From Thioploca sp. (GTDB lineage: Bacteria; Pseudomonadota; Gammaproteobacteria; Beggiatoales; Beggiatoaceae): a DNA stretch of 34,050 nucleotides. Shown here in pieces: positions 19,951-21,820 of the stretch (the first letter of the stretch is position 1; every line of letters starts with the position of its first letter). The stretch is taken from positions 1 to 34,050 of the forward strand of contig DAOUSL010000020.1 in assembly GCA_030627235.1 (NCBI GenBank), written 5' to 3'. Position numbers and translations under genes: made by a program. The notes beneath the pieces were generated by a model. It was given only the letters and a program-made list of their open reading frames with translations. It was not told the origin of the DNA and did not search any database.

Positions 19951-20691
19951 ATGAACAATCTCAAAGCATTTAGTTTAGTAGCTGGTATTTTACTAAGTAT
20001 CTCTGGTTCAATTTCTCAAGCACAAGTAGAAGAAGTTATTTACAATCAGACTGAAGACGGTGAAGTAACCAGAAATATTATATCAGGCGTGCGTGGAATG
20101 AGAGGCATGCGTGGAATGAGAGGCATGAGGGGTATACGTGGCGGTTGTTGGGATATTCAAAGTAATTTCGCTTTACGTTTATTAGTACCTAAACGTACTG
20201 GTAAGACTGTTGATGCTCAACCAACATTATATTGGTCAATATCTGAGTCTTTAGAAAATGCTGATTTTACTTTCATTATAGATAAAACTCCAGAAAAGTT
20301 AACAGAATTCTCTGAAACTCCATTATTTAAAGATTCATTTCATTTGAAATCAGTAAAATCAGGTATACATACATTACCTCTTAGTAATTACAACCTAAAT
20401 TTAGAAAAAAACGTGGAATATGAATGGTCTATATCTTTAATCTGTGACCAGGATAATCCTTCTTTGAATATTAGTGCAATTAGTACAATTGAACGAGTTG
20501 ACGCTCCTTATATCTTATTATCAGCTAATAATAATCAGGATATGGCCGCTTTATACGCCAAACATGGTTACTGGTATAATGCTTTAGACATATTGTCTGA
20601 ACAAATTAAAGTAAACAGTTTAGTACATAAAGTACGAGCAAATTTATTACGACAAGTTGGATTACCAGAAGTAGCAGTCTATGATATGTAG
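19951..20691 (+). CDS. Secreted DUF928 family protein with Arg-Gly-Met tripeptide repeats
   Basis: The 246-residue protein has a Sec signal peptide (about 1-24, ending SQA-QVEE). Next is a low-complexity tract at about residues 46-65 with four Arg-Gly-Met units, then RGI and RGG. From about residue 70 it follows the DUF928 pattern: ALRLLVPKRTGKTVDAQPTL, a WSISES strand, FHLKSVKSGIHTLPL, then YEWSISLICD and a C-terminal helical AALYAKHGYWYNALDIL. DUF928 proteins are common in cyanobacteria and Beggiatoa-like bacteria and have no established function; export to the periplasm or cell surface is inferred. AAGGAAAAGTT before the ATG gives a good ribosome site. A strong hairpin follows the stop, and an IS1-family relic sits directly behind it. 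Confidence 0.8.
   Translation: MNNLKAFSLVAGILLSISGSISQAQVEEVIYNQTEDGEVTRNIISGVRGMRGMRGMRGMRGIRGGCWDIQSNFALRLLVPKRTGKTVDAQPTLYWSISESLENADFTFIIDKTPEKLTEFSETPLFKDSFHLKSVKSGIHTLPLSNYNLNLEKNVEYEWSISLICDQDNPSLNISAISTIERVDAPYILLSANNNQDMAALYAKHGYWYNALDILSEQIKVNSLVHKVRANLLRQVGLPEVAVYDM
20092..20127 (+). repeat. Two perfect tandem 18-bp repeats inside the DUF928 gene
   Basis: The unit CGTGGAATGAGAGGCATG occurs at 20092-20109 and again at 20110-20127, encoding Arg-Gly-Met four times. Each 18-bp unit is itself two divergent 9-bp units using CGT and AGA for Arg, so expansion probably went from 9 to 18 bp. In-frame length variation between strains is plausible. Confidence 0.9.
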
Positions 20692-20700
20692 ATAAATATT

Positions 20701-20732
20701 AAACCTCCAATATATTTAATGGTTGGGGGTTT
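20701..20732 (+). terminator. Probable terminator of the DUF928 gene
   Basis: AAACCTCCAA (20701-20710) pairs with TTGGGGGTTT (20723-20732) over 10 bp with one T-G wobble and a 12-base loop. It begins 10 bases after the stop. The IS1-family relic with its target duplication begins at the very end of this stem, so any original U-tract may have been displaced by the insertion. Confidence 0.65.
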
Positions 20733-20739
20733 ATATTTG

Positions 20740-21554
20740 GGTAGTCCTAAAGAAAGTAGTGGTGCATAAACTCAAATAATATTAGTGTTATAATGATGGA
20801 TAAAAGAATCCCTACCCAAATATGATTTGAAAGTTTTTTAGAGAAAGAGTGTGTGCTTCTGACAAGACGTGCAATGAAGTAACTAACGAATGTGAGATCA
20901 ATTCGTTGTCTCATGGTGCAATTAAAGCGTTCAATACAGTTTGTAAGACCAGTCCCTTTAGCAACAGATTTATGACTTTGGAAAAATTGTATCATATGCT
21001 TTCCAAAAATCTGTAAATGAAACAGCATATTGTCGATATACAGAAGGTAATGAATCCCATAATTCTTGAGTTCCTTTTGTATCTCGACTACCAATGTATA
21101 GAATCCCTACCCAATAATTTCTTTAGTGTCAATAGCAAGCCAAATCCATTGCTTATTTATCTATCACAAAAGAATCCCTACCCACATTGGGCGTATAAGG
21201 TAACGCCACTTCGTTGCATCACACTGGATGGTAAGTTTACCTTTTCGGAGTAACATAAACAACTTTTGGAACAGAATCATATTTATCATTAACATAATTT
21301 TGTAACCAATACTCAGAAACGTCAACGACTCTTGCAATACCAGCTAATGGGATTTTTTCTAATATTATCAATTAAGGTTTTATTCCGAAATACAATTAGT
21401 TGGATCTAAAATAAATTGCCTGTTACAATCTTTACAAGCGTATTTTTGTTTTCCATTGTGGATGCTTCCATTTTATTTTTTCTAAGTTACATGTTGGACA
21501 ATTCATAGTTTTTTTCTTAATATATTATACATCACTACTTTCTTTAGGACTACC
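20740..21554 (-). mobile_element. Decayed IS1-family insertion sequence with intact ends and 8-bp target duplication
   Basis: The 815-bp element is bounded by 25-bp terminal inverted repeats (20740-20764 and 21530-21554, one mismatch, outer end GGTAGTCCTAAAG). It is flanked by direct repeats TATATTTG at 20732-20739 and 21555-21562. Inside, on the minus strand, are broken pieces of an IS1-family transposase. Length, terminal repeats, target duplication and protein all fit IS1. It lies directly after the terminator of the DUF928 gene. The near-perfect ends contrast with the heavily disrupted gene, which suggests the element moved or was kept in trans, or that decay is confined to the gene. Confidence 0.9.
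20772..21506 (-). pseudogene. IS1-family transposase pseudogene, multiple frameshifts and short insertions
   Basis: Reading piecewise from the ATG at 21506, the frames give MNCPTCNLEK, then NGSIHNGKQKYACKDC, RQFILDPTNC, IPLAGIARVVDVSEYW, KGKLTIQCD, MW, SFV, NKQWIWLAIDTKEIIG, YIGSRDTKGTQELWDSL, then TNCIERFNCTMRQR, RLVRSTHSFSKKLSNHI and finally IHHYN. This is the zinc-finger N-terminus and DDE core of an IS1-type transposase. Frame breaks occur at several points. Three are caused by the same 8-nt insertion (plus-strand ATCCCTAC at 20808-20815, 21103-21110 and 21174-21181). Two further insertions of 27 nt (20876-20902 and 21188-21214) keep frame. No active product is expected. A 115-codon stretch, 20747-21094, is open but contains only the damaged C-terminal part. 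Confidence 0.9.
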
Positions 21555-21820
21555 TATATTTGGTATAGTCTAAATTTATTTTAGATGATTAAAGTTCAAA
21601 ATAAAGATATATTGGTATATATTTAAAAAAATATTTAGGTATACTAGAATAATAGATGCTTAAATATTCGGAATTAAACTTTTAGTTTTTATAAAAATCC
21701 AAAAATTGTTTTAGATATTGATAAAGTCAATATTTATCCGATATAAATATTGAAGACCACTTTATATTATTCAAAAATATGTATATTTTGAACTCATTTT
21801 AAATTTAATTTGGACTAAAA

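Follow-up and report, generated by a model that had tools for sequence, protein, structure and literature searches.

A dispersed 11-nt repeat in decayed IS1 elements of Thioploca and in heptamer arrays of cyanobacteria

The closest known kind of element to the repeat described here is the small dispersed repeat (SDR) of cyanobacteria. SDR1-8 of Nostoc punctiforme and its relatives, attributed to Elhai et al. in 2008, are reportedly 21-27 nt long and thought to be mobile. They are said to lie often within heptameric tandem repeats or small transposons and to form nested or tandem copies, and some of them, SDR4-6 only, reportedly have a conserved hairpin. We know of no mechanism for cyanobacterial SDRs, and elements that are too small to encode or structure anything, and yet are dispersed as mobile DNA is, are poorly understood. 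SDRs are cited in passages of two papers (PMC3116915 and PMC4390886), and a passage of the latter places SDR5 within HIP1, inserted at a precise point defined by sequence. REP sequences and REPINs, which are spread in trans by RAYT transposases, are short non-autonomous repeats, the REPs being palindromes of about 20-40 nt (PMC3116915). TAACTGA heptamer direct repeats of marine Beggiatoaceae are found in Beggiatoaceae, Cyanobacteria and some Bacteroidetes, and their horizontal movement has been suggested (MacGregor 2015, PMC4679880).

The case presented here offers exact pairs of filled and empty sites and a simple rule by which 11 nt take the place of 3 behind GG, with the same transposase codon hit repeatedly and an identical 11-mer in two phyla. 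The spread of a sequence of about 11 nt thereby becomes a directly testable question.

Three copies in one IS1 relic

Elements of the IS1 family are characterized by a DDE_Tnp_IS1 or InsAB-like product, a target duplication of 8-9 bp and terminal inverted repeats. The window, by which we mean the whole stretch of 34,050 nucleotides analysed from a Thioploca sp. contig (DAOUSL010000020.1), contains an 815-bp element that fits this description, as its sister copies match PF03400, it is flanked by the duplication TATATTTG, and its ends, GGTAGTCCTAAAGAAAGTAGTG and an inverted copy, are inverted repeats (Table 1). Several further frameshifts and stops interrupt the relic apart from the inserts described below. 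Outside the element, at 20085-20127, a tandem repeat with an 18-bp unit encodes RGMRGM in an ORF at 19951-20691.

A sequence-only reading of the window had reported that the octamer GTAGGGAT interrupts the transposase gene at 20808-20815, 21103-21110 and 21174-21181. An exact count returned these three copies, all on the minus strand, and removal of each was confirmed to restore the reading frame (MW-SFV, IIG-YIG and FIHHYN). The mean number expected by chance in the window was 0.61, and 3 of 100 shuffles reached three or more copies, so the octamer on its own is weak evidence. Each of the three copies shares a longer context, the 14-mer TGGGTAGGGATTCT. That reading had noticed no further insertion in the window, and none is there. 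In the source genome, a draft assembly of 4.58 Mb in which many contigs end within IS copies, 30 copies of TGGGTAGGGATTCT were counted, against 0 of its reversed control.

The octamer had been taken as the inserted sequence, with TCT as its flank. As the net gain in length the octamer stood, but according to uninserted relatives the TCT lies mostly inside the inserted unit. Since 11 nt stand where those relatives have 3-4 nt, TCT belongs to the unit, which is the 11-mer GTAGGGATTCT in place of 3 (or 4) native bases, with a net gain of 8 (or 7). The minimum free energy predicted for a hairpin of the 11-mer was 0 on both strands.

Table 1. Positions in the window of the IS1 relic, its target duplication and the three copies of the 11-mer.
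Feature	Position	Strand	Basis
IS1-family insertion sequence, decayed	20740-21554	minus	Sequence; DNA relatives in own genome; PF03400 relatives
Target-site duplication, left copy, 8 bp, TATATTTG	20732-20739		Sequence
Target-site duplication, right copy, 8 bp, TATATTTG	21555-21562		Sequence
GTAGGGATTCT, site A (DEMW^SFV)	21171-21181	minus	Empty homologue ATATGG-TCT-TTCGTAATG in genome G001
GTAGGGATTCT, site B (EIIG^YIG)	21100-21110	minus	Empty homologues GTAGG-AGCT-TACGTTGG and GTTGG-TTCT-TATACAGG
GTAGGGATTCT, site C (AIW^FIHHYN)	20805-20815	minus	Empty homologues TTTGG-TAC/CAC/ATT/TTT-TTYATTCATCA; tree requires 3 or more independent changes

Filled and empty sites in the source genome and its relatives

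Of the 30 exact 14-mers, about 28 are carried by IS1 relics, whose diverged copies have them at three homologous positions, and the remaining 2 lie in an IS630-like gene (contig C393) and in an unidentified region (C83, 7336-7349) with no Rfam family match and no clear gene. The 30 copies mix insertion events with IS proliferation, and because many of them descend from few insertions in this way, they do not amount to 30 events. In the alignment, where site B is marked by EIVG^, the sets of inserts differ among the IS1 copies of the genome (A only, A+B, A+B+C, or C only). Of the 96 genomes searched, source genome included, 7 contained TGGGTAGGGATTCT, all of them from the source genus or a sister genus of the same family. 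Other gene families also hold the insert, namely IS630-like genes in the source genome and in G002, in both of which dropping 8 nt rejoins two frames, and a TnpB-like gene of G005, to which it is antisense; the names IS630 and TnpB were taken from reading the translations and not from a profile search. A few other matches were ordinary coding sequence, such as ESLPN in an ABC transporter of G029.

Comparison of homologous sites revealed what the 11-mer replaces. At site C of G001, a near-allelic pair reads ...GGAGCTATTT-GG-CAC-TTTATTCATCACTATAATG when empty and ...GG-GTAGGGATTCT-TTTATTCATCACTATAATG when filled, and a second pair reads GG-TAC-TTCATT and (A/G)G-GTAGGGATTCT-TTCATT, respectively. 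These IS1 copies belong to the source genus, and the first pair shows CAC-TTTATT when empty and GTAGGGATTCT-TTTATT when filled. The middle triplet of further empty copies of this site is ATT or TTT. Site A is empty in G001 (ATATGG-TCT-TTCGT). For site B, with the empty form GTAGG-AGCT-TACGTTGG, several copies show a net gain of 7, a point against the copying reading given below. The fixed 11-mer sits between GG (usually TGG) on the left and T or TT on the right.

A tree of site-C flanks, built with the insert columns left out, required 5 switches of state, filled or empty, and strongly supported branches forced 3 or more of these, showing that the 11-mer was gained or lost at this site at least 3 times. 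Across the filled IS1 copies, with two deletion junctions set aside, we counted 0 substitutions in 154 nt of 11-mer against about 13 predicted by the flank rate, although the copies are related and the figure is only indicative. The inserts thus look younger than their host copies or homogenised by conversion; that gene conversion among IS copies could produce the low divergence counts against the copying reading.

The motif acts as a recombination repeat in the source genome, where deletions end in the 11-mer on two contigs, leaving the left side of site A joined to the right side of site B (C115) or site A joined to a native GGGATTCATTACC further on (C232). On contigs C37, C67, C68 and C290 of the same genome one base is added, giving CATATTTGG in place of CATATTGG; in copies with CATATTTGG the gain of 8 is turned into 9 and the transposase tail stays in frame across the insert.

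Copies in heptamer arrays of cyanobacteria

We scanned 84,980 GTDB species genomes for the 18-mer TTTGGGTAGGGATTCTTT. Planktothricoides sp. SR001 and the Oscillatoriales MAG S07.Bin090 each had many matches, and Thiotrichales HSG1, Thiotrichaceae GMC7 and Thiomargarita RS_2_10 had a few. Eight unrelated genomes had one match each, about the number expected by chance (estimated at 7-8), and the 11-mer is absent from nearly all other genomes. Whole-genome counts of TAGGGATTCTT were 279 and 123 in these two cyanobacteria, compared with 4 and 1 for the reversed controls, and 38 in the source genome (control 0). Among 245 genomes of the cyanobacterial order, GGGTAGGGATTCTT had 12-272 copies in four and a single copy in every other genome with a match; Planktothricoides has 261-272 copies of the 11-mer per genome. 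The 11-mer is multicopy in one genus-level Thiotrichaceae group with its sister genus, and in cyanobacteria of the Planktothricoides group. A scan of IMG/VR for the motif gave scattered single matches only.

The cyanobacterial 11-mers lie mostly inside arrays of TTGTTGG-type heptamers, either singly or as 15-bp tandem arrays (11-mer plus TTGG), and TTGG is the left context at 113 of 135 sites. Because empty sites in heptamer arrays are not uniquely alignable, the heptamer phase was used instead, and past the 11-mer it fits a loss of 3 nt and a net gain of 8 (mod 7) at 29 of 40 sites, +8 and +15 being indistinguishable in such arrays. Between two cyanobacterial species with about 88% identity, orthologous arrays are distinguished by such repeat units, with gaps of 8 nt, and in two near-identical strains (99.5%) the repeat units are mostly common to both.

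Some loci have additional features. In several Planktothricoides arrays of tandem 15-bp units, every two units contain four runs of GGG (GGGTAGGGATTCTTTGGGTAGGG) and could fold into a G-quadruplex. In Thiotrichaceae GMC7, two intergenic copies lie 28 bp apart with TTGGTTATT adjoining, like the cyanobacterial arrays, and a third copy, inverted and partial (TCCCTACCCAGTTGATTTGTAC), is just upstream. The Bacillota MAG AS09scLD_203 contains the motif as a perfect inverted pair (AAAGAATCCCTACCCATTTTGGGTAGGGATTCTTT), possibly a chance terminator hairpin.

Origin of the repeat and comparison with known systems

We believe that GTAGGGATTCT is a very small dispersed repeat of the mobile type, of which new copies are written from existing ones, and we put the probability of this reading at roughly 0.6; mobility by copying is well supported. 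Unit, left neighbour and net change are alike in the relics of one phylum and the arrays of another, which argues for one copying process with an 11-nt unit and not for random decay. The initial suspicion that random decay would hardly explain the three inserts, and the proposal of a site-specific micro-insertion or templated process, gained support from the recurrence of the 11-mer at homologous sites of many IS1 copies, the IS630-like and TnpB genes of relatives, the hundreds of Planktothricoides copies and the exchange of 11 nt for 3 beside GG in both phyla.

In the course of repair or replication, each new copy could be templated by an existing copy, or by its RNA or single-stranded DNA. 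A strand with TGG at its end would pair with TTGG of the donor, copy GTAGGGATTCT and return through the T-rich right side with about 3 bases skipped, the microhomology being TTGG on the left and TT on the right; an RNA template, if involved, would carry AAAGAAUCCCUACCC. Transposon relics and heptamer arrays may accumulate the 11-mer because they are expendable and repeated, and its presence in two phyla could mean that a carrier, or the machinery itself, was transferred horizontally. We identified no donor, enzyme or RNA for the copying, and count this against the reading. It is doubtful, as a stronger form of the same idea, that the fixed 11 nt are written at TGG-NNN-TT by a machinery dedicated to this task, perhaps with a small RNA or single-stranded DNA as template, which prefers IS elements, heptamer arrays and other repeated DNA and has passed between Cyanobacteria and Gammaproteobacteria. 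If this were true, no smaller DNA sequence that spreads itself would be known, and the 11-mer might also inactivate IS elements.

Site A is occupied in every IS1 copy of the source genome that covers the position, the site-C insert is carried by at least 11 copies of the C37-type subfamily, and direct motif repeats recombine, as at C115. These observations would suit one or a few ancient insertions into IS1 that spread afterwards only by transposition of the inserted copies and gene conversion, with no continuing activity of a micro-element in the lineage. We regard such a history as unlikely, if worth serious consideration, as the 11-mer occupies three positions in IS1 and further positions in IS630-like and TnpB genes, was gained separately in G001 on a subfamily backbone of its own, and has hundreds of copies in cyanobacterial heptamer arrays.

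Improbable is a scar composed of bits of both ends of a larger transposon, inserted at GG-NNN-TT and then excised, even though a constant 11 nt with a small target loss resembles an excision footprint and slippage could yield the tandem 15-bp arrays. A longer element starting with TGGGTAGGG or ending with GATTCTTT was not found, other contexts being point variants or unrelated sequence, and no larger parent element was seen in the genome or in 548 kb of mostly cyanobacterial loci, which is why we disfavour this origin. Other sources were tried and rejected. A mini-element derived from 5'-truncated IS1 3' ends with the motif (C360, G001 C8 and C444) was rejected as none had a flanking duplication. 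For an origin in a tRNA T-arm, GAATCCCTACCC resembles a tRNA 3' end, and among the part of the genome's GTAGGGATTC places that were read none continues into GAAC. An Rfam search of four loci returned nothing relevant.

Programmed bypassing of the T4 gene 60 type requires that take-off and landing codons match and that a product is translated downstream, and gene 60 is said to have GGG followed by UAG at the bypass. Deleting 8 nt from the relic restores the frame, and site B has GGG followed by UAG, so one may ask whether the insert might be excised at the mRNA or DNA level, or bypassed by hopping ribosomes, with transposase still being made. Bypassing with GGG as take-off and landing codon works on paper for site B only. 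We find removal or hopping very improbable, because host copies are broken by other frameshifts, stops and deletions, and the 11-mer is also found outside coding sequence, in heptamer arrays, and antisense to TnpB. Moreover, an extra T in some C37-type copies makes the insert readable in frame (NHIWSNLGRDSFIHHYN), which would be pointless if it were removed or skipped, and the programmed removal suggested by the sequence-only reading finds no support. Chance, or an assembly or sequencing artefact, is hardly credible, given that random coding matches such as that in G029 do occur but reversed controls gave 0 and the insert is present in independent assemblies of at least 5 organisms, one of them a single-contig genome of 7.2 Mb.

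A literature search did not find the motif in any relevant paper, and GTAGGG was not found in the main text of PMC4679880. Like the TAACTGA repeats, the 11-mer is a short repeat common to Beggiatoaceae and Cyanobacteria; however, it does not have the TAACTGA unit, and those repeats are tandem heptamers upstream of start codons, whereas the 11-mer forms single inserts in transposase relics. It differs from REPINs and REPs in having no palindrome or self-complementary structure. Its likeness to SDRs is greater, as it is dispersed, highly over-represented, present or absent at homologous sites, inserted at precise points defined by sequence, tandem in places, and embedded in heptamer arrays in cyanobacteria and in IS1 relics. 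In contrast to the 21-27 nt of SDRs, however, its unit has 11 nt (15 with TTGG, the period of the tandem arrays), no structure is predicted for it, it replaces 3 bases, and it is common to Gammaproteobacteria and Cyanobacteria. The 11-mer is thus one of the smallest mobile-looking DNA repeats so far, with the SDRs of cyanobacteria as its nearest counterpart.
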